The translations under genes and the position numbers were made by a program. Below the pieces are notes generated by a model. It had not been told where the DNA came from. It ran no database searches and was given only the letters and a program-made list of their open reading frames with translations. From the NCBI RefSeq assembly GCF_039555335.1, contig NW_027305508.1, forward strand, positions 806,001 through 870,000: DNA of 64,000 bases, in the 5' to 3' direction. Each line of letters opens with the position of its first letter. Within the stretch, counting starts at the first letter, position 1. This DNA comes from Amphiura filiformis. Taxonomy: Eukaryota > Echinodermata > Ophiuroidea > Amphilepidida > Amphiuridae. Shown here piece after piece: positions 6,199 through 54,439 of this stretch.

Positions 6199-6477
6199 AT
6201 GTTATTTAATTGTTCATGCAGAGTTCAATCAGCTACACCCAGCAACTACACCACCAGATTCCTGTTGCGGCCGCCTGCACAGCCTGGTATTGTGCAGCAC
6301 AAGTGTACCAGTGCAGTACCACTGCTGGTAGATCCTGTGCACTATGCAGTAGCTGCATTGATACTGGTACTCTGTGAGAACCAGCCAGGTACCTTGGTGA
6401 TGGTGTACCTGTGCAACCGGCCTAATGGGCGTGTGTGTTCAACACCAGAAATGACAATGCAAATACTGGGAAAGTAG
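6199..6477. other. GC-richer patch, unrecognised
   Basis: A 280-bp island of balanced composition in AT-rich flank, open for 92 codons on the plus strand. The translation is rich in Pro and Cys and resembles no family I know; the minus strand also gives no family. Could be a transposon fragment or an exon of an unknown gene. Confidence 0.25.
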
Positions 6478-7119
6478 GGTTAAGGTTAAAGACGCTTCAT
6501 TTGAAAACAAAACGTGATTATAATTAGAAATTGATTTTGTCATGACAACAAGTTTGATGAATTGAGTTTAAATGTGTACCAGTAGCCGTAAGCCTATTTT
6601 GTTGTATTTATATAAAAAGCTATAAAATTAATTAACTTGTGTAACTAAAATGAATCGCATGCGACGCACGATTATCATAGACCTACCAGTATTTAAAAAA
6701 ATGGGAATTGCTACTACCAAAGCGATTCAAATATGAACATATAATTCATTACTTTTGTTTCGTTTTGTTTAAATCAATGCCTTTGTGATATTTTACTTAT
6801 ACCACCAAGGGCGTACATCGGGCGGGCCCACCCTTTTACAGCATGCAAATTCTAATGTATAAAATTTAAACTATAAACAAACGTTATAATATTTCAGAAT
6901 TAACATAAATACTATGTACAATAAAATCTACAGTATATATATCCAAGTTGGAATGTAAAGTCATATCTCAGTATTGCCTCAGTGAGTCAAATTGTCATTC
7001 GCAGTTACTTTCCTAATAAGGAGACGTATATCACGTGACTGAGCGTACACACAAGGTAAGTTCAGATTAAATCAGTTCGTTTTCAACTCCTCACGTTTCA
7101 CTGTTCTGACTAAAAACAC

Positions 7120-7593
7120 TTATTCTTGTATTTCGGTACTATTACAGCTAAGCTGAGATGCATATGTATTGGCGGTGCTATTACTGCTAAACTGAGATGT
7201 ATACGCATATCTGATATCAGCTCCATTACTTGTTGGTCTGTCGGTGTACATATAATACTCAAGTCCCTGTCCATCTTCAGGGCCAAGAGCCATTGGTCCA
7301 TGCCACGCATGCGCATCAGATCCACGCAAATGATAACCATAAGAACTCTCCTTGACTTTGTAGCTTTGTCCATGGATGTTGCACTCAAAGGGAAAGTAAG
7401 TTTTCCAGGCTTTCCTGACGTCTTGTGACCGAAGGCAGAAGAGAATGAAGACAAGGAGTCCTTGGATAGAATTGAAGATGCAGAAGAGTAGTTGGAATAA
7501 GAAGGTTGCTTCATCAATGGCGAGAAAACCAAAGACCCAGGTTAATCCAAGAAGTACTGACATTACTAACGCATTCTGAAGGCGACTAATAAT
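7120..7593 (-). CDS. Receptor exon 18: TM6, TM7, cytoplasmic tail, stop
   Basis: 157 codons plus TAA at 7122-7120. TM6 is MSVLLGLTWVFGFLAI, TM7 is FLFQLLFCIFNSIQGLLVF, followed by RSQDVRKAWKTYF (juxtamembrane helix). The tail is rich in Ser, Thr and Tyr. Its last 27 residues contain a 39-nt tandem duplication (SQFSSNST / SQLSCNST). No AATAAA was found close downstream, so the mRNA end is not placed. Confidence 0.93.
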   Translation of the reverse strand: MISRLQNALVMSVLLGLTWVFGFLAIDEATFLFQLLFCIFNSIQGLLVFILFCLRSQDVRKAWKTYFPFECNIHGQSYKVKESSYGYHLRGSDAHAWHGPMALGPEDGQGLEYYMYTDRPTSNGADIRYAYTSQFSSNSTANTYASQLSCNSTEIQE

Positions 7594-10500
7594 CTGTAGG
7601 TTGCGAGAGAAAGAAATGTATTGGAAAATTTATTATTCATAGCATTGGTGGGGAAAGCATATGTGACCCAATCTGATCCACTCAGACTAAAGTCGGAAAT
7701 TTAGAAAATTGCTCCATATACTTACTGATGTTGAACACCCAGGGGTCCACTAAACTTTTAACCCTTCGTAACTCAAGTAACCGTTCGTAAAGTTACGAAT
7801 ACCCAACACTAGACGTAACTTTACGAAAGGATGTAGTAAATCCCTATGACTTACGGTACCCGTTCGTAAGTGAGTTTAGTGAAATGGAACTTACGACTCG
7901 TCGTAAGTTACAAATGATTTCGAGACTTAACGAAGCTTCTTAAAGTTTTGTGAAATGGACCCCAGGTCTTTTGAATACTTGGTTGCAAAGTTATGAACCT
8001 GCGATGACATTACACATGTTACATTATCGTATTTCTCAGCGTATAAGCCGCACTGTGGATGGACCTAAGCTTCGTGTCTCTATTGTGATCAATAGAGTCA
8101 TCTTTAAAGGTTTATTTTATTTATAATTAACACTTGGCTTGGTAAGCATATTCTTTTACCAACACATTTGGTTATATTATTGCTTTTAATAGTCAACTAC
8201 TCTATTACCAGATTTAGGAAAAACACACCAAAACAATGAATACGCCATTGCATTACCTGTTCCGATCTTCCTTTCTTTTCCATCGTACTAGCGCACTTGC
8301 TTCCCATATTGGATGGTAGTAAACTCTTGACAACCAATCCAAATGTGATGAAATTATGGATGAGAATTAACCCTATAGGTAACATCAAACCGTAATACAA
8401 TGGGTAGCCAGGACGAAGGAAGCAACTGTGAAAAAAAAAGAAGATATCATTAGCATGGTAGTGGTAAAATAAGTACAACGGAGTTTAACTTCTCTTCAAA
8501 TGGAGAAATGTAGCTTTCTTGTACTGATGAACCTAATATGAACCGTTTCTTTGTACTCGCAGAAGAGGGCGACATATGGAAAGTGTTGAGTGTAAAGACG
8601 GTTTGCCGTCGTCAATACTATATTTGATTTGTTTTGACGAAAGATTGTTGATGGTTAAGGAATAAATATTTCTCAGCAAAGGTAAGGTAAGTCAAGTTGT
8701 CCATAGTTTTAGGAAGAATTAATTAATCATTTTAACTTACCGGTGATATTCACACATTTAAAGGTTATTATGTACTGATATCCGTGAAGTCTATTTGAAA
8801 CTCTTTATAACTATTAAATTCTAAGATACCGTACGAAGTCTTAAAAAAAAATCAAAATCAAATGCAATAAACAGAGATTTTCCCTACGAATTATCACTTA
8901 CTGAGATTCGCTTTTGTATTCATCTATCGTTAAGGCGACGCAGATTATGACAATGATTGTTGGCAATCCTATTAAAGTAGAGGAAAGGATACATTAGGTA
9001 TTATGTTAGGATGAATAAATACAAATCTGTATTGTCAGATAAAGCTCATTCATTACCCTATATAGACTACTTAAAGAAATCGAACCTATTTTACGTAAAC
9101 ACATTCAATAAAACCATGACACTTGTTACCAGCTGTCATTGACAACCAATTGCCTAAAGCGAAGGTCACTTTCTGGAAAGCTGGACTGAACACGATCATC
9201 TAATGTAACTGATTGCCTATCATGACACCTGTTACAAACTGTCAACATTTGACAACCAATTGCCTCAGGTGAAGGTCACTTTCTGGAAAGCTGGACTGAA
9301 CATGATCATCTGATGTAACTGGTTGCCTGTCATGACATCTGTAACCAACTGTCAACATTTGACAACCAATTGCATCAGATGAAGGTCACTTTCTGGAAAG
9401 CTGGACTGAACACGATCATCTCATGTAAGTGATTGCCTGTCATGACACCTGTAACCAACTGTCAACATTTGACAACCAATTGCATCAGGCGAAGGTCACT
9501 TTCTGGAAAGCTGGACTGAACACGATCATCTCATGTAAGTGATTGCCTATCATGACACCTGTTACCAACTGTCAACATTTGACAACCAATTGCATCAGGT
9601 GAAGGTCACTTTCTGGAAAGCTGGACTGAACACGATCATCTAATGTAACTGATTGCCTATCATGAAACCTGTAACCAACTGTCAACATTTGACAACCAAT
9701 TGCATCATCTGAAGGTAACTTTCTGGAAAGCTGGACTGAACACGATCATCTGATGTAACTGATTGCCTATCATGACACCTGTAACCAACTGTCAACATTC
9801 GACAACCAATTGCGTCAGGTGAAGGTCACTTCCTGGGAAGCTGGACTGAACAAGACCATCATGTAACTGATTCCTTCCTGGGTACAGCCCTTTACTGTAC
9901 AACAAACTAAACTAGTCACATAAGAGACAGGGAAAGGATTCCTTTGGGAACTAAGCTGCCAAGAAGAATTCCTTCAAACTTAACGTACTTATAGTTGTTA
10001 TGATATAGCTTGCAACATAGTAGTGCATACAAGATCTACCAACAGCGACGAAATTTCACTTCTGTGAGAAGCGCCAATCAAGTATAACCAAAATGAAAGT
10101 TAGGTAGCATTTAACAAGGCCTTATATTAGTTGCCGGATAAAAATTGTGTCAGAAGCGCACGTCATCTAACCCAAATAAGTCATCTTACGTTAATATTTA
10201 TGTTTTCTTACCCCAAGCGAATAAGCACGCCTTCAGCATGAACTTTGATTCCGTTCCTTTAAAGACACGCACCAGAAGTAGATACATATTCCTGGCCTCT
10301 ACCGCCATCCACGCTAGTGTAGTCAGTGTAAAGTAATGCAGCAAGGCAGCTATTATGAGGCACACGGTGCCGTTACCTGTGGCTTCTATGCCACCAAGGA
10401 ACACCACGTAAAGAAACAAGAGAGAGAAACACAACTGGATGAGAATCTGACGGGAACGGCTTGATCGAAGACTCCTACAAGACAAGAATATACAAGACAT

Positions 10501-13500
10501 ACATGTAAGTATTAAGGTATTTGAAGTACATTAAGGAAGTCTTTTAAGACTTACATTAAAACACTTACATTAGGATATTTGGTTAGTCTGATTTGACACA
10601 AAGTCCATTTGTGCGAAGCTGACTACTGAATAGGCTTCTTCATCATCAGAAGTTGTAAAAGTTTGAAGCTAAAAGAAGCACTAGCCTTTGTCATGCGTTT
10701 TCTTTTCAACATTAGGGTTAAATGTTAACATTCTCATACCTGAGTGCAAGTAGCGTAGCCAGGGACAGAACCAACCCAGCAATAGACAAGACACATCCTA
10801 GTTTAGTGATAAAATCCAACACGAATCCTTGTACGCCTTCACTTCCATTGCCAGTCATATCCTAATTGAATAGAAATCAGAGCTAAAATTATACGAGAAA
10901 GGCACCACGTTTTAGTCATTATGGGCATGTTTCGAGATGCAACTTTGGTTGGCATTTGCAATACTGGAATAGCTGGTGAATTCAATGAATAGCATAACAT
11001 GAACATACAGAATAGTTAATTCAAACATTGATGACATGACATAGTAAGTTTCTATAGTAGCAAATATTTAAAGAGGAAGTCCCGCCAGAGCAGTTCTTCT
11101 GAGGTGAACCAAACCTGCCTGGTTATCAAATTAATCAGTGGCAAGGTTATCTCTGAATTTGACAGGTGCTAAATGATGTTTTAATGTTATTTTATCAATT
11201 AGCACCTGTGAAATTCAGAGATAACCTTGTCACTGATTAATTTGATAACCAGGCAGGTTTGGTTCACCCCAGAAGAACTGCTCTGGTGGGGCTTCCTCTT
11301 TAATCTACAATCCTGGTCAAAAGTAGTTGGAACACTTGCGTTTTGTTTTCTATTCTAGTATCAACATTGACTTTTTTAAACGTTTTACGAAATTGTTCGC
11401 TATAGTTCTATTCAGTGATATCTATCATTCAGTTCAAACGTTGATAATTATTATTGTGCTCTTGTGGATTTGTGCTTTATCACTGTTTATATCATCGTAA
11501 CTTGCTTTTGGTGTAATTGTGTTTGTTATATTACATTGTGATTTGAGTTGGGAACATTTGTTGAACATTGTTGCTCAAAATATTTCAGAATATAACCAAA
11601 ACGAGGTGCCAATCACAGGTTGCATAACTTGTAAGTGTATTATTGTCCTGGACAATGCACTTATTGCACCTGGACAACTTTCCATACAGAGCTCCTATCA
11701 TGTGGACGGAAGTATTGCCCGAAAGTATATTGTATTTTGGTATTGGGACCTCGACAACAATCCATCCATAGCAGCTCATACACCATGTACATGCAGGTGG
11801 TTGTACATAATTATTGTAATTGGTATTTAGATAATACCAGGAAGGAATGCAATACTTTCACGTGTTGCACCTGGTCAACATTCCATCCATAGCAGTTCAG
11901 CTGGTATTTAGATCGATTTGACGCTATTAAAGGTACATACCATGCAGTACTTTCACGTGTGACACCTTGACAACATTCCATCCATAAACAGGTGGATGTA
12001 TATTGTAAATCTGGTATTTTGACAGACTTATGACGCTAGTACTTACCAGGAATGCAATACTTGCACCTGGACAACATTCTATTGTATTGAAATTCTAGCA
12101 TACGGAGCATTTTGGCAACATGGCAACTTTAAATACTCTTGATTTCTAGTATCACCCCTATATCTATTAGAAGGAAGGTATGAGTTCGTTAGTGTTACAT
12201 TGCAATAATCACAATGCTGCTTGTGATAAATAATATTTCTACCCCAATTATTTTGCAGAATGATTTGTAACATTAATAGTTTTTATTAATATTCCCTTTA
12301 CATTTTAATTTATGCCCCAAATCTAAAAGGGGGAAGTAAGTTGAACACTAAAGATCTTTGATGTAACATATGTAATGTTGGTGATAAGTGCAGGAATTAC
12401 CGATTGTTGTTGCAAAATGTGACATTATGGAAACTAAAACAAGGAAAAGAACTACACACATCAAAAGTCGTATACATTGATTAAAACACTGATTTAATTT
12501 GCAGGGGCAATTAATATTTAACATACTAGTATACTAGTATGTGTGTGTGTGTGTTTTATTTTACGCAGAACAATTACAGCATTCATGATCAGCCAAACTA
12601 TATATCGTAGCATATTTGACTATTCATGTATTTTCTACAGCATTCTTTATTTAAAAATTACGTTTTATACTGGAATATTAGTGAATCTAACGACAGTAAA
12701 CACTATGAATATAATTATGTAGAGCTTGTTTCCAAACCATGTTAAGTCCACGACCACATGTTTCTCATTTACTTGTGTGATACAATCACAATTACTTTGA
12801 CAAGTTTGACATTAGCAACAATGAGTTGTACCATCAACAAATTACAAGCCACAAGAATGCTGCTTAACAATATGCAGACTATTGTTCTCATTTGGGAACC
12901 AAAGGCCTCACACAGTATTGTTACTGTGCATAAATCCACTTTCTGCTTTGTAATGGTGCATCCAATTGAAATTACTATACCTAAAGTTAATTTTTTATTA
13001 CTTCCGTGGTCCGGGTACGCGCTGGTGAATTGCGATCGCGTAGTAAGTGACAAGGTCGCCTACTACGCGCCGCGCCGAAGACCAATGGGTCAACCGGCTT
13101 GTTGTCAAGTGCGTTAAGCTGCCAATCAGCGTGATTGTTTATTTCTTCTGTGGGTACGCTCGTCTACGCTTGGCGCACAGCTCGGACCACAGAAGTAATA
13201 AAAAATTAACTTTAAAGCATCACAACTCATTGCAATATCGCACGCGTAAATCAGAATTAAACATGTGTTTGTGGACTTAACATGGTTTGGAACCAAACTC
13301 TTCATATCTGTAACCTACCATTAACACAGCAAAGCTAGTCAAATGGTAACAATGACAGACCACTCTATCATCAATCGTACCAGTATAATAGCAACCCTTA
13401 TCCGACCAATCCCCGACGCCGTCTTCTAGAGTAAAATCCCAATATACACACTCAGCCTTTCCAGTAGATTCGTTCCAGGCCTGGTGGATGAATTTAAAAA

Positions 13501-16500: not shown

Positions 16501-19500
16501 GATGAAACCATGCAACAAACGGACAATTTATGACACTGTAAGCAACGCTTTTGCGGCATTCTAGTTAACGAGTTATTTTAGAGGTCTTCTTTAATACATA
16601 AAGGCAATTCTGGTAGTCATCATTGCCCGGGCATCATTGCCGCCATTTTAAATCAGAATATACCTTTGCCATTATAAGTTCAAAATGTTAATGACAAACT
16701 ATTACTTTTTTTTCAACTTAAGTAACATTTCCTGAATTTTTGTTGTTGATATCATACTTTCCTTAAATTTTGAAAACAAAGCATCCTCGCCTGTGACATC
16801 CTATTACCTGCGTATTAATAATCTGACCTAGTAATGCTTTACCGCTATCAATACCAACATCCAAAAGTGACTAATTTAACAATATATTATATGCTTTTCA
16901 TTGATTTTGGCGGCCATTTTGAAAAAAAGGGCCCTCAGCTGTGACATCATATTACCTTCATATTAATACCCTGGCCTAGTAGTATATTATTGCTAACAAT
17001 AATCCAAAATCTGGTTAAATGTGTCCCTAAAGTGACTAATTTAACCATATATATGTTTTTCATTGAGTTTGGCGGCCATTTTGAAAAAGGCGCCCTCAGC
17101 TTTGACCTCCTGTTACCTTCATATTAACAACCTGACTTAGTAGTACATTATTGCTATCAATAAAAATTCAAAATCTGGTTAAATATGCCCCTAAAGTGAC
17201 TAATTTAGCCATATATATGTTTTTCATTGAGTTTGGCGGCCATTTTGAAAAAAAGCGCCCTCAGCCGTGACCTCCTGTTACCTTCGTATTAATAACCTGA
17301 CTTAGTAGTACATTATTGCTATCAATAAAAATCCGAAATCTGGTTAAATATGCCCCTAATGTGACTAATTTAACCATATATATGGATTTTGGCGGCCATT
17401 TTGAAAAAAGCGCCCTCACGGAAAAGTTCTCAGGTTACGGGCTTTTTACCCAAGAAATTCTTGTTCCCGATGCAAAACTGGTCCAGATAAACCATATGAG
17501 AATTTCTCGTTCTCCAAGTGGTACTTAGCTCAGTTTTAACCTGGTCTCTATGCATTTATCAGCATGATCATGCAGTTCATATCACTGCAACAAGAGAAAA
17601 TCTCCTAGTATTTCAAACCAGAAGAGATGTAAGGAAAAGAGGGAAAAGCACTTCTGATTGCTTGCATGAAAAAACAAAATAAAGAAAAAACACCAAACAA
17701 TATATATAAGACTCTTTGATGAATGTTCCTTCTAAGAATAAATTGGTTCGTGCTTCATGCGTGCAACAAACAAACAAACAAACAAACAAATGTTACCACA
17801 GAAAACATGTTTTGTCTAATCCAAGGGCGAAAAGTGTGTTCCACCAATGAAGCAGATGAAACAATGCTTATTTCACAGTTCACGAATCAGCCCAAGGTCT
17901 TGACAGCATATATGAAACTTATTTTAAAAAGTCCCGTTGAAAAACCCCTAATTCTAAATCACAAAGACAAGAATGTGTTATGCACCATGTGTCCAATGCG
18001 CACCCCGGTCGTCAACTCTCTTAATCTTAAACAAAAGTGTGAAGAGATGATCTGAGGGACCAATTGCCAAAAGAGTATAAATTGCATATCTTTAAAATAA
18101 AGTACTAGCAAAATAAACTTCAATTTCCTGTTAATAATGTCATTTTAACAGGAGATTTTGAAAGTAATATCGATTGTCTAAATTTCTGTAAAGTCTGAAA
18201 TTTTCTCAGGAAATTTATACTCTTTTCGGCATGGTCGCTCAAATTACATAAGAGAATAGTTTGGCTACCTACTTGATGAGGAGAGAATTCAATGACAACC
18301 GGCTGGGTTAGGTTAGCTACGGTGGGCCCCTCCACAGCGGCTGATATAACTCGCCCTGATGTACTGACGTTACGGTTCGACTCCCTCATGGCTTGTAACC
18401 GCTTGGATTTGAACAGGCGATCACTTTGGAAAAGAATGAAACTAAAATGGACATTGGAGTCGGGACGGTTTGAAAGACCTGTAAGAAAGAACAAAATTAT
18501 GCATTCAGGTCAATAATGATTACCGGTATATGCCTACTGCATTATTCTTTGCAAAAAAGGGTTCAACTTAGAACCTCAGGAAATAGGGCTCTAGTGTTCA
18601 AGAACCCAAAGGTTCCTAATAGATACCAAAAAGGGTCTAAAGACCCTTTGGAGAACCTCTAATAGGGTTCCTTAAAGAACCTTTAAAGGTTCTTCCTGGA
18701 CGACAGCCGAAGAACCCAACCCTTTCTTCTAAGAGTGTATCATCACATTGACGACGGACTTACAGTGATCCAACTAATTTAACTCTCTTCACGCGGGTGT
18801 CGACTGCAGACGACATGTTTCAAAATGTTTTAAAAATTTAAGAATTTCAGAAATGTAAATTTTCATGACCATATTTGGAATCAGCATGAGCAATGCATTA
18901 AAATGAGTACAAACAAGCCTAGTATTGGTTAAGTAATTCTTAAGATAGCTCTTGATATTTTGAGAAAATATTTCAAAACTTGAACTTTTTCCGTTGAAGC
19001 GCATGGCTAGCATCCAACTTGAACGTATCGGTGGTTATTGTCTTTTTGAGCTTCAGGGCTGTCTATATTGTGTTAATGTCAGAAGAATCAATTATAATTA
19101 TGCCTTCTAGAAATTGATATGTTGATAATTGCCTAGTTTGAGGGCAACTCATCAAGGATATTGAATAATGTTATAATTTTATCAACGACTTCCGGAGACT
19201 GAACTATTAACATCTGTGACAGGTTTGTTTTTCACAGGGTGTTATTCAAAGTTTATATGTTGGCTGAAAATTACTAAAAGTACATTGCGAGTCATCTATG
19301 TTCCATCACACACTACTGAAACAGTATGATGATGATTATTATTGATACTTATTTTATGCTGTTCGTGTATAAGAACATGAATCCTATACCATCATCAAAT
19401 AACTAGAACTTAATAAGTATTGTACAGATAATAGTGATTGTAAAAAGAAATTAGCAATATTTGCCATTAATTTTGCATAACTCATGGACTCATTAATGGT

Positions 19501-40500: not shown

Positions 40501-43500
40501 TGGTATTTCTCATTCATTTGAATGAGAAATATTTACATGAATGAGAAAATTATAAATTCTCATACTTTTGTCCAATTCTCATCGTTTTGAAAGAATTCTC
40601 ATTTTGAATTTTCCACTAGTGCATTGTGCACTATTATTGATCGTATGTACAGTGCACAATGGTAGATTTTGTATCTAGGGTCTTTGATATTGCACAATAA
40701 AATTGAACGTGTATGGGCCGCATTACAATATAGTCGTGTCATTCATGAAGACATGACTTTGTGTCTTAAAATAGGAGATGTCTTGCGTAAAGACGTGACC
40801 TTGAGAAGTATCTTAAAACCTACTCCATTGACTTGACGTGTCTTTTATGTATATATATTGTGTTTTTGATCAAGGTTAGCTTCAGCAAGGAGGTTAATTG
40901 CTATATGGGCGCACACCTGTCGGCAGTCTCTACAAGATGCTAGTTTCATGCTCTTTTTGTTTTTACATAAATTCTATACTTTTATGTTGTTGAAGGCTAT
41001 GAAGACGCAAGACACTTATAAGACACGATTGTAACAGAGTGTTTAATGCATTTTAGTGCATTTTATATATTATTGTCAACAGATATATGGAACAAAGTTC
41101 ACTACTATACCTTCCATTCCCAATAGACTTTGTCTGAGGGATTTCCGGAAGAAGCTGATTGTCTTTCAGTTTTATTGTTACAAATTTAGGTTAACCCTAA
41201 ACGATTAATTTCCTCAATTTCTGTAGTCTGTGAAGTTTGGCTGTATAAAATACATCATCATGATCATGTTCATTAAACCATGTTATTTATATTGGAGCAT
41301 GTAGCCTTAGTAAACAGAGTCGGGTTAGTTAAAGGAAGTTTTACTTTCGCAAGTTTTATGCCCGGGTTTTATGTGTCTGTTCGGAGATTCGACCTCTAGA
41401 CATACTTTCAAATTTCACCGGGAAATTTCTCTAATAGGAGAAGTGATATGCAAGTTGCCATTTTCTAACATATACCGCAGGCTCAATAATGTTGGAATTA
41501 TTTATTTCATAACACATACATACTATACACTAGAAACAAAATACCGGTTGCTTACCCAGCAAACACAAAAACGTTTTAAAAACGTTTTAAATAAGTTATA
41601 TTTTGGTTTAGGTAAAAACGTTTTGATAACATTAAAATGTCGGGTTATATAAAGGTCATGATAACGTTTTAAAACGTTTTGTATGAAAATACACTACAAC
41701 AACATTTTTAAATGTTTTCACAAAATGTTATTTTAAACTATTTTTACAAACATTTTTGCCAAATATTGGTTCAATACTTAAATAACATTATGTTAAAATG
41801 TTTGAACCCATCAAACACAGAAATGTTCTTTAAATGTTTTTCAAAACCTTTTAATAACATTTAAATGTCGGGTTATAAAAGGTCATGAAACGTTTTTAAA
41901 CGTTATTGAAAATATTTTGGGCAAACATTTTTCGCAAAATATTTTTTCAACTCCCCAAATAACATTCTGTTTAGAATGTTTTGTATCAAGTTTTCAAGAA
42001 TGTTTTCGGAAGGTTATTTAAACGTTTTTATACCCTTTATATAACACGACATTTAAACGTTTTCTGTAAAACATTTTTGTTTGCTGAGCAGTAGATTATC
42101 AAAAAATGTTTTTTAAGGTTATGAAAACATTTTATACTCTTAATATACCCTTTAAATAACCCGACATTTAAACGTTTTCTGACAACCTTTTATAACCTTT
42201 TGCGAATGATGTCGAAAACGTTTTGTGTTTGCTGGGTAACCATTTATAAGGACTGTTTTCCTGGTAAATTTATGAAAAGATTTGCATTTTGTTCAGTGAT
42301 TTTGTGCACGTTCTGTTTGCACATTTATATTTGAACGGACCATGATAGCAACAGCGACGAGACCCTCGTCTCCAAATAACTGCATAAGGACATCCAGATT
42401 TCAGATACCCCCAATATTGAATCATTTTACACTTACACTTACACTTACGGTTTAATGGGAGGTGGATAGGCTAAGGAAGAGGCTAATGTGCCTTTATAAC
42501 CCCATATCTCTTCCAATGGCTAGCTAGTGCAGTTTTGAAGGAGTTCACATTTTTTGCACTGATGACTTGTTGTGGGAGGTTGTTCCAACCATCCACAGTT
42601 CTCTGGGAGAAAACGTCTTGAGCGATTCGGTTAGTCTCGGCTTGAAGATTTTCATGTTATGCCCTCTTTGGTTGCTCTCATCTGCTACGTGAGGATTTTG
42701 AAGGTCTCGATTAGATCTCCACGGATTCTTAATTCTTTTGTTCCAAACTGTCGAATTCTTCTTTTGTTCCTTCAGTCTCTCAGTGTAGATCAGGTCTCTT
42801 AGTTATAGTTTTAGTTTTGGTACTAGTTTTGTGGCACGTCTTTGCACTTTCTACAGAGTGATTTTAAGTTGTGAATACTCTCTACAGAGTGATGATGTCT
42901 TTCTTCAGCGTTGGGCTCCAAGCTTGTGTTTAATGTTCTAAGTGGGGTCTAATATGTTTTGTATAGAGTGTGGTGAAGCCATCTTTATCAATATGTTTGA
43001 ATGTTTTCTTGATAACCCTTAGACTGTTCATTGCCTTTTGTGAGGCTTCATTTACAGTCATCATGTGATATAGACTCCCATATCTTTTTCTTGATCCATA
43101 TCTTCCAAGCTTTGATTTCCCATAGTGTAGTCATTCTATGTTCCTTCGCATGCTTTGCATTTGCTGGCATTGAATTTAAGCAGCCAGTTTCTGACCACTT
43201 CTGTAACTTATCTACACCTGTCTGCATCGTCTGGCGAGCTGCCAGAGGTGACCATCTTTGCATTAGGATACTCATGCACGAACCGCAAAATATATAGGAT
43301 GGGCTTTTCTAGAATCTAAACCACCCCTGAAAACCAGGCTTCCCACATTTCGCAAATTAGGTGCATGTCTATATTCTTCCAAAATGAAATGAATCTGGAG
43401 TCTTTCGTTGGTCATTCAAAATATAAACCATCACTTACCTAGAACTGTAACTTTGAATTCACACGCCAAGATATGATCAGATGATGAATCTCTCGCCAGA

Positions 43501-46500
43501 TAGTAATGCACTTGAACAGATCCGATTTCAAATTCATCCCCTGGATTATGATCACTTATCTGCGTGTATCCGTCTGGTACCGTAGGTATTGTCCAATACA
43601 CATGAGCAAAATTTTCTTCTGGTTCGGTGCTCACGGTTATGTTGTTGGGACAATCGCCAGCAAATTCGGAAGATGATTCTATACAAAATTAATGAAAAGG
43701 CAATTCAAGACACAGATTAATGATGTTGATTTAAAAGAAAGAGATGGAATATTGTCATTGTATTCTAGTATGTCCAAAGACTCTTTACTAACTATTGTGA
43801 GAAGTCAGTTTTGGAGGGAATGTCTGGGGGAAATGTTAGTCTCTTTTTTCTTCATGTGTCAAGCTATCAAAATTTCTTTCGATCATTGGTGGCTCTGAAA
43901 AGAGCCGTTTGTTTGAAGTATTGCAGGATGTAGCAACGTGTAACGATGTACCTGAGGATCGATTTTACCACTGAAGGAATTAGGAGTCGTGGACACAAGA
44001 GATCCTGTGGACACATGCCCAACGTGACCTTGGGAGGAGCATAAAAAGAGAGTTTTAAGTGATTCTTACGTTGGAAATGAATGACAACTTGGTGGTCCTG
44101 TTTTACACCCTTCTGCACCGATCTACATCCAAATGTTCCCGAATCTGACAGCAATGGAGGACGCAGATCTATTCCTTTAGCATTAGGTCTTCCCATTGTA
44201 GCATGATCCACTCTTCTGGAGAAGTTCTCAACCCGGTCACCATCAATATCAATGTGTGATGAAGATAGTTTAGGTGTACCTTCTGCTACGAGGCAAAGTA
44301 CCTCTACATAGGAGGTTGTTCTTGATAGAGTGATGGATATGGAAGAATCGGAGAGGATCTGTCTGTGGCTGTAATCACCATTTAGTACTATTTGTTCTGC
44401 AACAGGCTCTGTGATAAAAAATTGAAAGTTGTAACATTTTAGTAAGATGAAATGAAGGTATATGTGATGGTGTGAGGAGCTGGTCAGTAGGTATTTGGGG
44501 AATAATTCTGGTTTACCCTGCCACAAGTATAACCCTAATCCTAACCCACCCTAATTATAATCATAACCCTATTTTTATATGCAGCCCGGGGATGCAGCCC
44601 CCTCTTTTATTCCCATTGGGTTAGAAGTATACGAAAACATACCACAAAGAGGTTCAGGTCCACTCCATTGTCTGAAGATTTGGCAAGCTCTCACTGTACT
44701 GAACATAGTAAGTCTTTGCTGTCCTGGATCGGCGCAAACTGGTGTCAATGTGGTACCTACATCAAAGAACTGCTCACGTGTTTCGTTTAATTCTAATTCT
44801 GAACCATCGACAAATTGAAGTACGCCTGGGCTTGATGGCGGACGGGCGCAACCTGTAGTTTGGGTTGTAACATCTGCAAGGTAAAAGAAAAAAAAATAAT
44901 AGGCCTACTATTATCAAATAGTTTTGATGTTTTCCTATATATTCGATTTTAATCCGGGAAGGGGGGAGGCAAACAATGTAGGCCTATTGAAATAAAATGT
45001 CTGTAGATAAATGTCGGGAAAATGCGGAATTTTGAATATTTGTAAATACTAGAAACTTTCACTCTTGGACCTTCCCCATGTCCATGAATGTTGTTTATGA
45101 TAGCGGTTCCAAAAGATCATAATGATTCAACATTGATTACAGTGGTATGGGCAGAAATCTAGATACACCGGGCCATACAAATTGAAATCCATACTCCCCT
45201 ATACTGAAGACATATTCCTAAGTAAATGGGTGACTCCATTTGAAATCTACACCCCTGTGTGGCAAATTAAGGTCATGTCTTCCTTAGGGGGTGTATCTAA
45301 TTCAACTGGAATAACCCATGATGAAAATTGAAACTAAAACAACTTTGACCTAGAGTAGAATATTGCAACTCATTAGCAAATAAGCCGGGGAAATGGCTGT
45401 TGTGACCAAATGAATTTCCAATTTGATCATTTGTGGTATAAGTGGCCTATTTTCTTTTAATGGCACATATCTATTTTATACCGTAAAGGTATCTATTCCA
45501 ACCCAGTAACTTTAAATAAATTCAACCCTAATATCTCCATGATTCTGTTTCAAATTTAATTCTTCAAACACCGCTGATAATAATACCATATAACATAATA
45601 TCCGGGATTATAGTAAAACATTTTGAACATGCTGAAGGTGAAACATTTTTAGAAAGTTAAATAAGTCCGTAAAGCCTACTACTAAGCATAAAGGTTATAA
45701 AGATGTAGGTCTAAATATACATACGTAGTAGAGGTATAGGAAGCACTTTGAGCTAGCCCAATTTCTTATCTAATGACACAGATCTGACAAATGTGAGACG
45801 ATGAAAAATGTAATTCGGTGGTTTTAACTTTTTGTTTGGCTTGTCAATCTAATTGCTTATTCACAGATATGACAGCACAATATGTTTCTTATTGCTGATG
45901 GTCCGAAAGGGCAGATAAATGATATTGTACTAATCACCATGTACCACAATGGCCTCATCCCAATGGCATAGTTTAATAACCTCAATTAAAAAGTAATAAT
46001 GAAAAATTTAACCTTAAGTTAAAAGAGTATGAGTTTTTGTACCCAAATTTTCAAAGATCATTAAAAGAATGTAGAAATGTATTGGGGTCAAAGAACTGTG
46101 CCCTGATAGATGGGCATGTTGAGGACCCTAGTGAATGAGACTCGTGGTTCAACGCTTCTGGTATATATTGATAAGTTAACGATAACCATGGTAACGCAGT
46201 AACAACAAAGCCGTTATCATCAATATTCAAAATTAGTTATAATCTTAGCCTAATTATAATTCTTATATTCTAAAGAAGATGATCAAAAAGATAAAGAAAT
46301 GCCAACCCAGTTTACCTTAAGGTTATACAATCCATACTCATCATTTACGGGGAAGTCAGAGATTCTACGAGCATTTGCTTGATTAAGGATGGGAAGTCAG
46401 TGAGTATTAAGTACCACCTTCTGTCGACCCATATGTGGCAAATTTAAATAGAAACAGTCCTGATTTTATGATATCAAGGTATAAATTTCACCTGAAAAAT

Positions 46501-52500: not shown

Positions 52501-53623
52501 ATAATTATTGCTAAAGTCAGGTTTCGATTGCGTTTTTCATAATCACATTTTATTGACTTAATACAATAGAATTTCATTTTCAGCAAGCAAGCCCATATTG
52601 AAATAGTGCTTCGTGTATTTTGATTAATTTCTTTCAACAAGAGTCATTATGTGTGATTGTAATTTGTATGCATTGTCCGAAACATTCAAATACATTATGT
52701 GGAGAAGAATGGCTCATACAGAATTGGTTATTTAAAAGGGCATTTCGTGATCCACAGCATTATTTACCACCCCCCCCCCTCCCCACTTATCTCAAAGCTG
52801 AGACTTTTACTAGAAACATGGCTACATATGTACACAAATTTTCTTGCATATTCGTTAGCAAAAATAAATTGAATTACGTTCTGGTGTAGGTACCAGAAGG
52901 AAATTAATACACATTGTCTATCATAACATGATCATGCATAACTCACAAAGGCAAAATCGTAAGCTTTTTTCGTGTAAATCTACTACAAAATGTCATAAAA
53001 AAAGAGGATAGGCCTACTAGGATCATAAAATACTTCTTTTGAGAGAAAAATCACAGCGGAGAACCGGGAAATCACGGCGGAGCAATGAACAGAACACGCC
53101 AGAGTGGTTCTTTACAATATAGTTCTTTGAAAGAGTGAAAAATGTCAAACTCTTGCAATTAGGCCTACTTTTTAGAGTTATGGAGTTTGGAATGCATAAA
53201 TACTCACTCTTTTGGTTCGTTCTCTTACATTTCAGAGTAACGGAAGAATAACTCAGCTTGAATATTGACTAAATGGTCAATGCAATAATTTAAGACTAAT
53301 ATATTGTAAATAATGCAAATTGGTGTTAATTCGGTTTTGCCAAAGATAACCATCGTGCAAATTGGATAGCTCAGGTTAAAATTATATTTTACGCATTGTA
53401 TATCCATGTCCAAAATTACAAGCAGCATCAGCAAAACAATAAAACAGTAACCGTATTTCTGTTCCCAACAGATTCTATCTATCTTATCAGTGCTATCGAT
53501 ACAAATCACCATTGCACAGACGTCCAGCGCCTGTAGGCACTTACCTGTGATCTCGCTATAAAATAATATCACTATAAAGAAAACGGAATTCCAATAAACT
53601 CGATAAGTTGATATACCATCCAT
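7120..53623 (-). CDS. Adhesion GPCR: CCP, Ig, 4 HYR, HormR, GAIN/GPS, 7TM (18 exons)
   Basis: Predicted cell-surface adhesion receptor. Eighteen exons with GT-AG borders join in phase to 3843 nt: 1280 residues plus stop. Order: signal peptide (1-26), CCP (27-103), Ig-like (104-216), four HYR (217-541), HormR (542-622), GAIN (about 623-909), GPS cysteines C873, C892, C904, C906 with cleavage expected at L909/T910, 7TM (about 932-1177), tail 1178-1280. C995 at the top of TM3 and C1068 in the second extracellular loop can form the conserved disulfide. TM6 has the adhesion-family LGLTWVFGFLAI pattern and TM7 has NSIQGLLVF. Known for the family: autoproteolysis in GAIN leaves a tethered agonist starting TSFAVLM, which activates G proteins; the extracellular domains bind ligand. 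The ligand here is unknown. An in-frame TAA lies six bases before the start ATG, which has A at -3 and G at +4. Missed alternative cassette exons in the long introns cannot be excluded. Confidence 0.9.
7742..7963. repeat. Palindromic MITE in the last receptor intron
   Basis: Ends GGGGTCCACTAAACTTT and AAAGTTTTGTGAAATGGACCCC-type match inverted; the interior repeats CGTAA/TTACG words. Lies between exons 17 and 18. Confidence 0.6.
8257..8425 (-). CDS. Receptor exon 17: second extracellular loop and TM5
   Basis: 169 nt (phase 2-0). Begins with HCFLRPG, which carries C1068, the partner of C995. YYGLMLPIGLILIHNFITFG is TM5. Ends in a basic third intracellular loop, EKKGRSEQ. Acceptor TTCACAG|TTG, donor GAACAG|GTAATG. 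Confidence 0.9.
8902..8968 (-). CDS. Receptor exon 16: TM4
   Basis: 67 nt (phase 1-2), GLPTIIVIICVALTIDEY. This micro-exon is too short to show as an open frame by itself. It is required because exon 15 leaves in phase 1 and exon 17 enters in phase 2. Acceptor AATAG|GA, donor TCTCA|GTAAGTG. Confidence 0.9.
9115..9873. repeat. 110-bp tandem repeat, about 7 copies
   Basis: The anchor GACAACCAATTGC recurs at 9141, 9251, 9361, 9471, 9581, 9691 and 9801, exactly 110 bp apart. Copies are well over 90% alike by eye and share CTTTCTGGAAAGCTGGACTG. Lies in the intron between TM3 and TM4 exons; not coding. Confidence 0.95.
10212..10474 (-). CDS. Receptor exon 15: TM2 and TM3
   Basis: 263 nt (phase 2-1). 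TM2 is ILIQLCFSLLFLYVVFLGG. TM3 starts at C995 (TVCLIIAALLHYFTLTTLAW) and is followed by MAVEARNMYLLL, typical of adhesion GPCRs. The exon ends at the start of TM4. Acceptor TTGTAG|GAG, donor TGGG|GTAAG. Confidence 0.9.
10740..10861 (-). CDS. Receptor exon 14: end of tethered agonist and TM1
   Basis: 122 nt (phase 0-2). DMTGNGS continues the post-GPS segment, and LGCVLSIAGLVLSLATLLAL is TM1. Acceptor AATTAG|GAT, donor CTCAG|GTATG. Confidence 0.9.
11072..11299. mobile_element. Near-perfect foldback MITE with TTAA duplication
   Basis: Arms of about 100 bp are almost identical inverted copies around a 25-bp loop. Ends AGAGGAAG and CTTCCTCT are flanked by TTAA at 11068-11071 and 11300-11303. High arm identity suggests recent insertion. 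Confidence 0.9.
11635..12085. repeat. Degenerate tandem repeats
   Basis: Words such as CACCTGGACAAC, AACATTCCATCCATA and CAGGAATGCAATACTT recur several times at irregular spacing of about 100-150 bp. Intronic, no coding signal. Confidence 0.5.
12728..13293. mobile_element. Inverted-repeat element beside the GPS exon
   Basis: Outer ends TTTCCAAACCATGTTAAG and CTTAACATGGTTTGGAA are inverted. Inner arms AAAGTTAATTTTTTATTAC (about 12984) and its inverse near 13196-13214 enclose a GC-rich core. Non-autonomous DNA transposon; it ends about 26 bp from the GPS exon. Confidence 0.7.
13319..13480 (-). CDS. Receptor exon 13: GPS cleavage motif
   Basis: 54 codons, phase 0-0, residues 863-916. Contains AECVYWDF, then DWSDKGC and VCHCYHLTSFAVLM: four GPS cysteines, two Trp and the HL/T site. 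Family knowledge predicts autoproteolysis between L909 and T910. Acceptor CACCAG|GCC, donor TTAATG|GTAGG. The terminal inverted repeat of a transposon-like element ends about 26 bp past the donor. Confidence 0.95.
15287..15745 (-). pseudogene. Coding relic in left arm of the foldback element
   Basis: Frames on the minus strand read VKGKDVDEARYDIFDRK, then after a frame change RWRFISFAQISLQWRAADI and TVMPEDV, then SENSDLSDPED and a stop at 15289-15287. The ordering (YxxLLY, VNEARY, LPP, W-rich, PED) recalls multicopy hypothetical proteins common in aquatic invertebrate genomes. Frame changes make it a relic. Function unknown. Confidence 0.5.
16050..16494 (+). pseudogene. Coding relic in right arm of the foldback element
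   Basis: Inverted copy of the left-arm relic. Reads HTFTGNDYN at about 16057 (compare the HAFTGCD motif of a multicopy hypothetical family), an in-frame stop, then ELDEYVSLLYRVKGKDVNEA, and ends ELLEENDYEMFSENSDLSDP with stop at 16492-16494. Stops and frame shifts interrupt it. Confidence 0.5.
18273..18478 (-). CDS. Receptor exon 12: GAIN subdomain B
   Basis: 206 nt (phase 1-0), residues 794-862. Contains VHFSFILFQSDRLF, RVISAAVEG and NLTQPVVIEFSPH, the last matching the strand that precedes the GPS in GAIN domains. Acceptor TTACAG|GT, donor CATCAA|GTAGGT. Confidence 0.8.
18552..18741. repeat. Short inverted-repeat element
   Basis: Many forward and inverted copies of AAGAACC/GGTTCTT and AAGGGTT/AACCCTT. 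Ends AAGGGTTCAAC and AACCCAACCCTTTCTTC are roughly inverted. MITE-like; just upstream of exon 12. Confidence 0.5.
19780..20466. mobile_element. CCCAGCAAACAC MITE, copy 1
   Basis: Ends CCCAGCAAACACAAAACG and ACGTTTTTGTGTTTACTGGG are inverted. The interior repeats GTCGGGTTATATAAAGG and AAAACGTTTT. Inserted in the left arm of the Tc1 relic. A second copy in reverse orientation is at 41555-42236. Confidence 0.85.
20467..20910 (+). pseudogene. Tc1-like transposase, C-terminal remnant
   Basis: Reads IHQDDKAHP (from the DDN-RPH motif), RVVNDYLQNMGLERM, then INPDLNSIEQ in another frame (from PDLNPIEH), HLWDQFGVAVRTRV and WLKNGMPSHS. This order is that of the DDE catalytic half of Tc1 transposases. 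Frameshifts and a missing N-terminus show it is dead. Confidence 0.85.
21289..21655 (-). CDS. Receptor exon 11: GAIN domain
   Basis: 122 codons plus one base (phase 0-1), residues 672-793. The helical start VVKTIDNVLNG is followed by an acidic stretch EEEELDDDD, then a coil (KIIKSLEKQV) and beta-rich ITFVSFRDE with SIRLPKEV, as at the GAIN A/B boundary. Acceptor CAATAG|GTA, donor AACG|GTAAG. Confidence 0.75.
22050..22196 (-). CDS. Receptor exon 10: GAIN subdomain A
   Basis: 49 codons, phase 0-0, residues 623-671. The pattern ESVATTLENIADVQ is a helical segment typical of GAIN-A. Acceptor CACAG|ATT, donor GCAGAG|GTAATG. Confidence 0.75.
22731..22858 (-). CDS. Receptor exon 9: HormR, second half
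   Basis: 128 nt, enters in phase 1 and leaves in phase 0, residues 580-622. Contains ANRECELD, the WLEP tryptophan-proline step and the closing VSC of a HormR domain. It then runs into DTVDILDLML, the start of the helical GAIN-A subdomain. Confidence 0.75.
23443..23625. repeat. About 60-bp tandem repeat, 3 copies
   Basis: The block CCACCAGTTCTTTATTTGGC plus AAGGGGCA-type ending recurs three times with decreasing similarity. Intronic, between exons 8 and 9. Confidence 0.45.
23763..23876 (-). CDS. Receptor exon 8: HormR, first half
   Basis: 38 codons, phase 1-1, residues 542-579: AICPSIQ, then GWTLSWENTP and ERCSVYTTN. This fits the first part of a hormone-receptor domain (Cys, Trp, Pro, Cys spacing); the second half lies in exon 9. 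Acceptor TTGCAG|CC, donor AATG|GTAAGC. Confidence 0.75.
23930..24060. repeat. Palindromic MITE
   Basis: GGTCGCGATTTCCAAACATA at 23930 is inverted at 24040-24060, with CGTATCGTACG and TCTATTCAAAATC repeated inverted inside. Arms of about 60 bp meet almost without a loop. About 50 bp upstream of exon 8. Confidence 0.8.
24559..24801 (-). CDS. Receptor exon 7: HYR domain 4
   Basis: 81 codons, phase 1-1, residues 461-541. Contains APWFINCPNDTT, VYWDEPTATDNIG and VVQDSAGNKGICEFNITV, a textbook HYR domain. Acceptor CCACAG|AC, donor ATAG|GTGAG. Confidence 0.9.
25168..25413 (-). CDS. Receptor exon 6: HYR domain 3
   Basis: 82 codons, phase 1-1, residues 379-460. Contains PPVITNCPSNITINV, VTWIEPNITDNSG and YEAKDSSDNEEYCDFFITI, matching the HYR consensus throughout. 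Several NxT/NxS sites suggest N-glycosylation of the extracellular face. Confidence 0.9.
25872..26117 (-). CDS. Receptor exon 5: HYR domain 2
   Basis: 82 codons, phase 1-1, residues 297-378. Contains YCPEDITQSVPPGQ, VSWTAPDAWDNCD, MVYEVSDCSGNLAYCNFTIL. Besides the two framework cysteines it has an extra pair (DNC and SDC) that could form a second disulfide. Acceptor TTTCAG|AT, donor AGAG|GTAAGTG. Confidence 0.9.
26965..27204. mobile_element. TA-flanked MITE
   Basis: CGGGGATGTGCCACG at 26965 and CGTGGCACATCCCCG ending at 27204 are inverted and flanked by TA on both sides. The interior has inverted GCACCCAAATT/AATTGGGTGC words. Tc1/mariner-type duplication. Confidence 0.75.
28300..29105. repeat. 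Tandem repeat of about 120 bp carrying AGGTCAAAGGTCA
   Basis: About six units with the shared words GGGGCTCAAACTC, GACAACAAAC, CATGACCAGGGGAACATTTT and GTCAAAGGTCAT. GGTCAAAGGTCA or a close variant lies near 28333, 28489, 28600, 28731, 28848 and 28970. Intronic. Confidence 0.85.
29377..30469. repeat. Duplicated block, copy 1
   Basis: Same order and orientation as 30688-32356: ATCCCGACCATGAG, the SINE-like head, TTTCAAAAACGGAGCGGTCA, GACATGTCCGATGGCAACTT and GAAACGGGACATTTTCC. Lacks two insertions seen in copy 2. Confidence 0.85.
29551..29650 (+). mobile_element. tRNA-derived SINE-like head, copy 1
   Basis: An A-box-like TGGCCCAGTCAG near 29556 and a B-box GGTTCGAATCC at 29629 are spaced as in Pol III promoters. 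T-stem and acceptor do not pair properly, so it is not a working tRNA. Confidence 0.55.
30720..30813. mobile_element. 94-bp hairpin MITE
   Basis: GGGTGTTTATAAACCGAGGA and its inverse TCCTCGGTTTATAAGCACCC flank a short core. Absent from the sister block (29377-30469), so it inserted after the duplication or was lost there. Confidence 0.8.
30960..31050 (+). mobile_element. tRNA-derived SINE-like head, copy 2
   Basis: Nearly identical to copy 1, with TGGCCCAGTCAG near 30965 and GGTTCGAATCC near 31027. After the shared CACCCAGAGCAAACAA end it diverges from copy 1. Confidence 0.55.
31270..31700. mobile_element. TA-flanked foldback element with CAGGGTGTCCC ends
   Basis: CAGGGTGTCCCAAAG at 31270 and GGGACACCCTG ending at 31700 are inverted, each next to TA. 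Inner arms are also inverted (CATAACTAAATAACTGGTG-type against CACTTATATAGTTATG). In the sister block only the right half remains. Confidence 0.7.
32425..32682. mobile_element. hAT-like MITE with 8-bp target duplication
   Basis: Ends CAGGCCCGTACGCA and TGCGTACGGGCCTG are flanked by TACATAGG at 32417-32424 and 32683-32690. Eight-base duplications and CA...TG ends are features of hAT elements. No transposase. Confidence 0.88.
32690..33200. repeat. Imperfect tandem duplication
   Basis: TTGTCTCGGATG...CAACTG recurs at about 32690 and 32968. AGAACACGAAGAAGCAGTTG plus AATAGAGCTGGCATATTATT recur at about 33050 and 33130. Intronic. Confidence 0.6.
33294..33400. repeat. Small dispersed palindromic MITE, copy 1
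   Basis: GGGCTATTCCATTTAAAATC at left and a diverged inverse at right enclose CTGTGGAAGATT and its inverse AGTCTTCCACAG. Related copies lie at 34716-34850 and about 45180-45312. Confidence 0.6.
33860..34615. repeat. Repeat with TGACCTTTGACC words and (GAAA)n end
   Basis: ATGACCTTTGACCCCAATG and variants recur at least seven times at irregular spacing. The element ends in a GAAA microsatellite near 34560, a common 3' end for retroposons. Confidence 0.65.
34716..34850. repeat. Small dispersed palindromic MITE, copy 2
   Basis: CTCTGTGGAAGATTTT and its inverse ATATTCCACAGGGGG, ending GTGGATTTCAAGTCGAATAG, related to copies at 33294 and 45180. Confidence 0.6.
35110..36170. mobile_element. Foldback element with internal repeats
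   Basis: Left words (AGCGAGAACCAATCAGAGCA, TAGTGACAATTTTGTTATAA, AATTGTACAAAAT) recur inverted in reverse order on the right, centred near 35725. Several copies of GAGATGTTGA-CGTCTA and GTATTGGACACATCA lie inside. No transposase seen. Confidence 0.65.
37132..38544. mobile_element. 1.4-kb TIR element with orientation-switching motif array
   Basis: 72-bp ends (AGGTGAAAAAGTTCAATTTG and its inverse) mark 37132-37203 and 38473-38544. Inside are three units of about 150 bp with ATCCAAGATGGTGGCC, then about 20 short copies of CCTTATCTGGGGTTTA or its inverse. No coding frame. Confidence 0.85.
39715..39867. mobile_element. Harbinger-like palindromic MITE, copy 1 (intact)
   Basis: TGCGGCCCATACACGTTCAA at left and its near-inverse at right, flanked by TTA at 39712-39714 and 39868-39870. 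A 3-bp TWA duplication is typical of PIF/Harbinger elements. Confidence 0.85.
40239..40722. mobile_element. Harbinger-like palindromic MITE, copy 2 (interrupted)
   Basis: Same ends as copy 1 (TGCGGCCCATACACG and inverse), flanked by TAA and TTA. Split by another element at 40303-40621; without it the length would be about that of copy 1. Confidence 0.85.
40303..40621. mobile_element. CACTAGTG palindromic MITE nested in another MITE
   Basis: CACTAGTGGAAAATTCAAAA at left is inverted at right; arms hold ATGAGAATT and CTCATT words in mirror order. Flanked by CAT on both sides; the neighbouring copy 1 shows the empty site. Confidence 0.9.
41555..42236. mobile_element. CCCAGCAAACAC MITE, copy 2
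   Basis: Same family as 19780-20466 in opposite orientation. Flanked by TA at 41553-41554 and 42237-42238. The interior carries GTCGGGTTATATAAAGG and many AACGTTTT words. Confidence 0.88.
42428..43285 (-). mobile_element. LINE reverse-transcriptase C-terminal fragment
   Basis: Minus-strand frames read DKLQKWSETGCLNSMPANAK, YTMGNQSLEDMDQEKDMGVY, KVQRRATKLVPKLK and RGHNMKIFKPRLTE, in the order seen downstream of the RT palm in CR1-like LINEs. Frameshifts and stops break it. It is truncated at its 5' end and stops at a TAAGTG-type short repeat near 42430-42450. Confidence 0.85.
43439..43678 (-). CDS. Receptor exon 4: HYR domain 1
   Basis: 80 codons, phase 1-1, residues 217-296. HYR hallmarks: DCPNNITV at the start, a central VYWTIP, late VHYYLARDSSSDH and the closing CEFKVTVL. 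It lacks the usual DN pair after the tryptophan strand, so it is the most divergent of the four. A 17.3-kb intron separates it from HYR2. A LINE fragment begins about 150 bp downstream of its donor. Confidence 0.85.
44070..44408 (-). CDS. Receptor exon 3: Ig-like domain
   Basis: 113 codons, phase 1-1, residues 104-216. The Ig signature is the strand-B cysteine in VEVLCLVAEG and the strand-F motif LSDSGTFGCRS. This is the usual D-x-G-x-[YF]-x-C form with Phe in place of Tyr. Donor is CAAC|GTAAG. The open frame runs past the donor into the intron, but that part has no domain match and is not counted. Confidence 0.75.
44643..44873 (-). CDS. Receptor exon 2: CCP/sushi domain
   Basis: 77 codons, phase 1-1, acceptor CTTGCAG|AT and donor TGTG|GTATG. 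Residues 27-103 hold the four-cysteine CCP pattern: GC near the start, VCADPG, RAC, then a Trp in QWSGPEPLC. CCP modules usually bind proteins in complement and adhesion receptors. It directly precedes the Ig exon, 234 bp away. Confidence 0.8.
45180..45312. repeat. Small dispersed palindromic MITE, copy 3
   Basis: TGAAATCTACACCCCTGTGT and GGGGGTGTATCTAATTCAAC-type ends around GTCTTCC; related to copies at 33294 and 34716 but more diverged. Confidence 0.45.
47455..47545. repeat. Inverted flank motif, left copy
   Basis: CATTACTCGTTGACTGCCGA then CCCAATAAA and TTAGTCACCGG; recurs inverted at 50330-50400 and, degenerate, at 47962-48038 in the same orientation. Confidence 0.6.
47641..47720 (-). 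pseudogene. Class II tRNA-like (Leu/Ser type) remnant
   Basis: On the minus strand TGGCCGAGTGGTCTAAGGC is a perfect Leu/Ser-type D arm, GCGTTGCGC can form a variable arm, and GAGTTCGAACCCC is the T loop. Acceptor halves (AGACAAA and CTCTGCC) do not pair and the anticodon stem is poor, so it is a pseudogene or SINE head. Confidence 0.65.
48367..48421 (+). repeat. Homopurine tract
   Basis: About 55 bases of almost only A and G. Such tracts can form triplex structures; no function is shown here. Confidence 0.6.
48448..48720. repeat. Dispersed repeat copy B
   Basis: Same ordered motifs as 1768-2150 (ATATTTTGCCAGGGGG, GATGGTCAATATAATCA, TTTCGCGCGCATTTGTACCA), same orientation. Confidence 0.6.
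49195..50170. repeat. Tandem repeats carrying TGACCTCAAATGACCC
   Basis: Two units of about 130 bp, then about five units of 146-151 bp; the anchor TAACGAACATAAAC is at 49491, 49642, 49788, 49937 and 50088. Each unit has a TGACCT-4 bp-TGACCC direct repeat and ACCCACCCACCGAGTTTGAG. Confidence 0.9.
50330..50400. repeat. Inverted flank motif, right copy
   Basis: CCGGTGACTAAGTCCGATTT and TCGGCAGTCAACGAGTAATG, the inverse of 47455-47545. The pair could be ends of a 2.9-kb composite element. Confidence 0.6.
52736..53038. mobile_element. TTAA MITE family B, copy 1
   Basis: AAGGGCATTTCGTGATCCAC at left, inverse AGGATCATAAAATACTTCTT at right; TTAA on the left and TTGA on the right. Same family as 54440-54775 and 62213-62566. 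Confidence 0.75.
53545..53623 (-). CDS. Receptor exon 1: start codon and signal peptide
   Basis: Codes residues 1-26, with a hydrophobic core VFFIVILFYS preceded by polar residues, as in a signal peptide. The donor is CACAG|GTAAGTG and the exon ends in phase 1. An in-frame TAA just upstream fixes the start. An 8.7-kb intron follows. Confidence 0.8.
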
Positions 53624-53870
53624 GATTTAAGTTCCAAATTAAATTCCAGTGGTTAATTAATTTCACTAATAAAGATCCATCCAGGTTGCTGGTTTGCTCT
53701 CTTAGTTTGAACTGATACAGTGTTGTGATTTCTCCTGTGTTTTTATGTTGAGTTTTGGTTGGTGCGGGTTTGGTTCTGTGACGTTTGTGGCTTCGTATTT
53801 CCGCATGCGCCTAGACTCTGAATCAACCTGTACCTTGCTTGTGGGTTTGCAACTTCCATACAAGGTTGCT
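53624..53870 (-). promoter_or_regulatory. 5' flank of the receptor gene
   Basis: Sequence just upstream of the receptor start codon. It is more GC-balanced than its surroundings and contains CCGCATGCGC at 53801-53810, which resembles an NRF-1 site. I see no clear TATA box. The transcription start is not determinable by eye, and a further 5' non-coding exon is possible. Confidence 0.3.
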
Positions 53871-54439
53871 ATAATATATTCCAGAAAAATATGGTTACCA
53901 ATAATAGTTTTGTTTTAAAGCCATTATTGTAACATTTCCATACAAAATAGATTTAGGATTTCTTTCCTAAAATGTTAGCTTTTATTATCAGATATGCCCC
54001 TTTCAATTCTGAGCCGAACAAGTGAGTTAAAGCAAATAAAATTGGGACTTCTACCGGGGATTTCTACCAACGCCGATGTGGCCAATGCGTGTTACTCCGT
54101 CGGTCGTGCTACGGTACGATCTTTTGATGTGTGTATGACCGTCCCGAACGCATGCATGTACGTACTGTTTTATGAACATCGCGTAAGCGTTCTACTAATA
54201 TTTATATCGTAATAATTAAACGACGGTTCCTGCGTTTTATTCAAAATCTCCGTCGAAAAACTACACCTGATTTTTGCAGGGTAGGCCTATGTTAGATTAA
54301 TAAAGTAAAATAAATATAATCGTCTAAAAAACAGAATTTTGAAAAATATTGAGCAAATGTTACAATATGAAAAATGCAGAAATAGATAATGGACAATTCT
54401 TGCGAACTGTACTCAGAAATGAGGGTTCTAGGGTCTTAA

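Follow-up and report, generated by a model that had tools for sequence, protein, structure and literature searches.

The window analyzed here, a 64,000-nucleotide stretch of the Amphiura filiformis genome, most likely codes for a predicted self-cleaving adhesion GPCR with four HYR domains in its outer part. We found 18 exons on the minus strand that, once joined and translated, stay in phase from the ATG at 53623 to the end of the TAA at 7120 (Table 1). GT-AG borders are present in 17/17 introns, the coding length is 3,843 bases with the stop codon, and the span is 46.5 kb; the coordinates, the strand and the 18 in-phase exons given in the preliminary description were exact. Candidate minus-strand exons were tabulated with splice-site scores, and the translation was inspected by eye. 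Since the exon finder demanded AG and GT, the independent support for the model comes from phase agreement and homology only. We consider it probable that these exons form one gene, whose predicted product is a 1,280-amino-acid adhesion GPCR with an HYR stalk followed by HormR, GAIN, GPS and 7TM. The introns contain many repeats, as might be expected of a pseudogene or an assembly artefact resembling a receptor gene, but such an origin is highly improbable for 1,280 codons that run through 18 exons with no stop or frame break, with intact GPS and 7TM motifs and in a window with no N.

Table 1. Exons of the predicted receptor gene and its longest intron, in order of translation.
Feature	Positions	Strand	Evidence and remarks
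Exon 1: ATG and signal-peptide-like start	53545..53623	-	26 codons + 1 base; best donor score (7.1)
Exon 2: CCP/sushi-like module, phase 1-1	44643..44873	-	4 Cys, sushi spacing
Exon 3: Ig-like module by motif only, phase 1-1	44070..44408	-	2 Cys, EGTP and DSGTFGC
Exon 4: HYR1, phase 1-1	43439..43678	-	Pfam HYR 4.4e-11 (exon alone)
Intron 4, 17.3 kb, weakest link of the gene model	26118..43438	-	Repeat-rich
Exon 5: HYR2, phase 1-1	25872..26117	-	Pfam HYR 2.8e-15 (exon alone)
Exon 6: HYR3, phase 1-1	25168..25413	-	Pfam HYR 2.1e-15 (exon alone)
Exon 7: HYR4, phase 1-1	24559..24801	-	Pfam HYR 8.1e-18 (exon alone)
Exon 8: HormR first part, phase 1-1	23763..23876	-	With exon 9: Pfam GPR128_N 9e-7; 4 Cys
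Exon 9: HormR second part, phase 1-0	22731..22858	-	With exon 8: Pfam GPR128_N
Exon 10: GAIN subdomain A	22050..22196	-	Aligned with ADGRG6 6v55
Exon 11: GAIN subdomains A/B	21289..21655	-	Aligned with ADGRG6 6v55
Exon 12: GAIN subdomain B	18273..18478	-	Aligned with ADGRG6, ADGRG1, ADGRG3
Exon 13: GPS, HL/T (909/910), predicted tethered agonist start TSFAVLM	13319..13480	-	Pfam GPS 1.2e-16 (enclosing frame)
Exon 14: remaining agonist and TM1	10740..10861	-	Exon listing, splice phase, PDB sequence matches
Exon 15: TM2-TM3	10212..10474	-	Pfam 7tm_2 6.6e-16 (enclosing frame)
Exon 16: TM4	8902..8968	-	Translation, phase, Pfam on joined protein
Exon 17: TM5	8257..8425	-	Exon listing, phase, Pfam on joined protein
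Exon 18: TM6-TM7, cytoplasmic tail, stop	7120..7593	-	Pfam 7tm_2 3.5e-6 (enclosing frame)

Judged by its sequence, the receptor is an adhesion GPCR with a class B2 7TM. In the joined protein, Pfam recognized four HYR stretches (3.9e-55; each of the four exons alone reached 4.4e-11 or better), the GPS (1.8e-15) and 7tm_2 (3e-42, covering profile positions 4-250 of 250). Cysteines are even in number in all eight extracellular modules (four in CCP, two in Ig, 2/4/2/2 in HYR1-4, four in HormR and four in GAIN). The protein matched 97 PDB sequences, and the best 60 of the 97 are led by ADGRG2, ADGRL3, ADGRG6 and ADGRD1; over the GPS-7TM part the E-values were 2.1e-54 for ADGRG2, 4.1e-52 for ADGRL3 and 1.5e-48 for ADGRG6. 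The part predicted to comprise three HYR domains, HormR, GAIN and 7TM is firm and lies within 19 kb. The preliminary description had proposed the architecture CCP-Ig-HYRx4-HormR-GAIN-7TM, from which the four HYR domains, GAIN/GPS, 7TM and HormR (the latter as GPR128_N) were retained, CCP is kept as weakly supported, and Ig was not upheld, with a motif and no profile behind it. Of the Pfam profiles suggested at that stage as a check, HYR, GPS and 7tm_2 were recovered and HormR turned up under GPR128_N, while CCP, Ig and the GAIN model PF16489 had no match in the receptor.

The least certain modules are the two that precede the HYR domains. Exon 2, with its four cysteines at sushi spacing, ranked first of 1,243 sequences (9.1 bits) against a small ad hoc CCP profile built from seven sequences; the runner-up was a longer open frame in which this exon lies, and 1,000 shuffles reached at most 5.4. 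Against PDB sequences it gave weak rows (E 0.17-3.9), 10/11 of them complement proteins and the top one an unrelated isomerase, and a structure predicted from the single sequence was set aside (mean pLDDT 37.6). We list exon 2 as a weakly supported candidate CCP module. Exon 3 has EGTP and DSGTFGC motifs and two cysteines 56 apart, which would fit an Ig fold, but it had no PDB match, did not appear in the top 14 rows for an ad hoc Ig profile and ranked 86 of the 1,055 listed for a second one. Since no profile matched it, exon 3 is not filed with confidence as an Ig module, an assignment made by motif only. It is quite possible that exon 3 is some other two-cysteine module, in which case the receptor would be an HYR-rich adhesion GPCR with one unassigned module; the missing matches and low ranks point that way, whereas the motifs and the cysteine distance speak for Ig, albeit through a pattern defined post hoc. 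Pattern counts in this window against those in 60 simulated windows were 1 vs 3 for CCP, 1 vs 0 for Ig and 4 vs 0 for HYR, with patterns composed after seeing the sequence and leaning towards the exons found.

Exons 5-18 are joined by domain order as well as phase. Exons 2-4 form a tight trio 17.3 kb upstream, bridged to exon 5, and across 8.7 kb to exon 1, by phase alone; as phase 1-1 modules can join anything, the phases cannot exclude two genes. The gap is long and every module around it is of phase 1-1, so an alternative is a pair of same-strand neighbors, namely an upstream CCP-Ig-HYR protein and a downstream HYRx3-HormR-GAIN-7TM receptor with its first exon in the gap, where three ATG candidates with a hydrophobic start and a donor of phase 1 do occur. 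However, the best donor among these scores 4.9, against 7.1 for the exon starting at 53623, the top scorer among four ATG candidates with a hydrophobic start in 44874-64000, of which the remaining three are nested in one another at a single site. The gap, in which tandem and inverted repeats occur, contained no further domain either, with no Pfam match on either strand except one to AMIN under the cut-off. Moreover, exons 1 to 4 depend on the downstream part for a stop codon; an unsystematic look recognized no terminal exon for them. We regard the two neighboring genes as unlikely; the content of the gap and the donor scores favor a single gene, without proving it, and the CCP, Ig and HYR1 exons probably belong with the 7TM exons.

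Codon bias, trained by contrasting exons backed by homology with open stretches of the window outside exons, placed exon 2 above 123/123 controls, HYR1 above 109/109 and exon 3 above 14/15; it does not separate exons 1, 8, 12, 17 and 18 from non-exon stretches. Pfam matched nothing in the 8.7-kb first intron (minus strand), and the region downstream of the gene was likewise without a match on the minus strand (1-7119) and on the plus strand (1-4000).

Several other features were found in and around the gene. Within the coding end of exon 18, a 39-base tandem duplication (2.0 copies, 7127-7203) repeats part of the cytoplasmic tail. The motif TGACCTTTGACC occurs 14 times with at most one mismatch, 11 of these copies being exact, where 0.28 would be expected, at 4789-4800 and 28333-34450, mostly within the 17.3-kb intron in dispersed tandem repeats; we take its form to be a direct repeat with a one-base spacer, like nuclear-receptor sites. 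Frames at 42930-43130 (minus strand) and about 20500-21140 resemble, by eye, remnants of LINE reverse transcriptases and Tc1-like transposases, with no Pfam match save the sub-cut-off AMIN in the larger stretch searched. On the plus strand, an exon-like open frame at 60427-60771 matches the Ras family (Pfam, 4.5e-10) and forms the start of a neighboring small-GTPase gene, with no further Pfam match in 60901-64000 of that strand. A tRNA scan of the window found none, the AATAAA count (162 vs 138.7 expected) was uninformative, and so was a bacterial promoter scan with regard to the receptor gene.

Intron 3, between the Ig-like and HYR1 exons, contains on the minus strand, outside the coding gene, a perfect histone 3' UTR stem-loop, GGCTCTTTTCAGAGCC (43866-43911, stem at 43891-43906), which precedes ACCA and a run rich in purines and matches Rfam RF00032 with 38.0 bits (gathering 34, E 1.5e-7 in the window). 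At histone-type 3' ends the cut falls just after the stem. A short receptor form ending there is unlikely, because the first stop on reading through from exon 3 (43867-43869) lies past the stem and such a cut would leave no stop. Two weaker sites resembling this stem-loop lie on the plus strand of the intron between the HormR exons (23476-23619): GACTCTTTCTAGAGCC at 23476, with three mismatches, and GGCTCTTTTCAGAGCA at 23579, with one mismatch and 21.9 bits, below the Rfam gathering value of 34. By eye, both stand in repeats of about 50 bases. A histone-coding remnant was looked for beside the stem-loop and not found: when five stretches were compared with four histones (200 shuffles each), 4/5 fell below the 95% mark, and plus 23300-23475 scored 36, just above it (35.0; largest 43).

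The GPS carries the canonical cleavage site His908-Leu909-Thr910 (HL/T, 909/910), followed by SFAVLMDM. Tyr875, 33 residues before His908, is aligned with a Phe of ADGRG6, and the Gly891-Cys892 motif is retained. According to PMC13062082, an aromatic residue and a Gly-Cys motif favor GPS cleavage; in ADGRL1 the aromatic residue is Phe803, at the corresponding place before His836, and the Phe803Tyr form is still cleaved in cells but slowly as a purified ectodomain. The same paper describes a canonical HLS that is insufficient for cleavage in ADGRB2, and hence cleavage at HL/T in our receptor is something we infer; with these helpers present, autoproteolysis there is predicted and likely.

By analogy with other receptors of the family, signaling might proceed as follows. 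The GAIN domain would cut its own chain at the HL/T site and the two pieces would remain together. The stalk would then bind a partner on a neighboring cell or in the matrix, whereupon force or dissociation could free the tethered agonist starting TSFAVLMDM, which would enter the receptor's own 7TM and switch on a G protein. The domain names HYR and CCP allow a guess at matrix or complement-like/cell-surface ligands, HYR modules being used in matrix and recognition proteins. Four HYR domains on a self-cleaving GPCR would give such matrix or recognition contacts a direct G-protein read-out. The stalk itself may have been assembled by exon shuffling, which is an established principle for phase 1-1 modules and which the module exons found here would fit.

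The predicted HormR and GAIN lean toward the Pfam models of GPR128/ADGRG7, mostly below cut-off. HormR exons 8 and 9 alone reached 29.4 bits against GPR128_N (cut-off 27.2) and, within longer sequences, 26.0 and 24.4 bits, under the same cut-off; the two Pfam GPR128 GAIN models (A and B) matched the joined protein weakly, far under their cut-offs. Both subdomains (A and B) of the GAIN region align with ADGRG6 (6v55), and subdomain B also aligns with ADGRG1 and ADGRG3. As a control, a latrophilin-1 stretch matched the HRM and GAIN models but had no GPR128_N match, which argues, from this single control, that the GPR128 lean is not common to every HormR-GAIN. ADGRG7 is not found among the best 60 of the 97 PDB matches, and we know of no HYR/CCP stalk in human GPR128. 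An undescribed, GPR128/ADGRG7-related subfamily of invertebrate adhesion GPCRs, with CCP, an Ig-like module and four HYR domains as a sensing stalk, is a tentative and rather doubtful reading. Were it true, signaling through the tethered agonist would be coupled to recognition of the matrix or of surfaces, self or foreign, and a GPR128-type HormR-GAIN would exist outside vertebrates. Such an invertebrate HormR-GAIN would bear on how the ADGRG7 family arose, which PMC8584163 calls the youngest and did not find in lamprey, lancelet and Ciona.

We did not find the CCP-Ig-HYRx4-HormR-GAIN-7TM stack in the open-access literature searched (for background on GAIN, see PMC11697300). The only paper found there with both "adhesion GPCR" and "HYR domain" deals with choanoflagellate GPCRs (PMC12716839); its text index counts "HYR domain" once and the available main text has none, and the paper may therefore already note HYR in adhesion GPCRs of choanoflagellates. 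The words HYR, hyalin and sushi are absent from the first 300,000 of the 412,533 characters of PMC13197933. In PMC7042368, 38/39 adhesion GPCRs of a sea cucumber genome were left unclassified, and therefore receptors of the present sort may be common but unnamed. Searches with the GPS-7TM part gave 5 pattern-matched stretches in viral contigs and 48 in prokaryote genome contigs, with 0 confirmed in either set and no bearing on animals.

Among known receptors, ADGRG2, ADGRG4 and ADGRG6 (GPR64, GPR112 and GPR126) share with the predicted protein the GAIN domain, an HLT GPS, the tethered agonist and the 7TM. The ectodomains of ADGRG2 and ADGRG4 have other modules and are not known to carry HYR or CCP. 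That of ADGRG6 likewise differs in carrying CUB and PTX. ADGRL3 (latrophilin 3) resembles the receptor over GPS-7TM, whereas, judging from the latrophilin-1 control, its HormR and GAIN fall under different Pfam models. Hyalin and SVEP1-type matrix proteins have the same kind of HYR modules but are not GPCRs. The multi-domain adhesion GPCRs of amphioxus also place shuffled extracellular modules ahead of the GPS and 7TM (Kringle, somatomedin B, C-type lectin, SRCR, LDLa, I-set, CUB and TNFR among them), and neither HYR nor sushi occurs in the text of PMC2246102. The gene had been put forward in the preliminary description as a candidate for an undescribed receptor system, a view not borne out by the comparison, since Ig is reported in mammalian GPR125 and multi-module receptors in amphioxus (PMC2246102), and the receptor would thus represent an established kind in an unusual form. 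Adhesion GPCRs are known for their shuffled ectodomains, and an HYR-rich stalk adds a further architecture to the family, unusual as a combination but not revolutionary.
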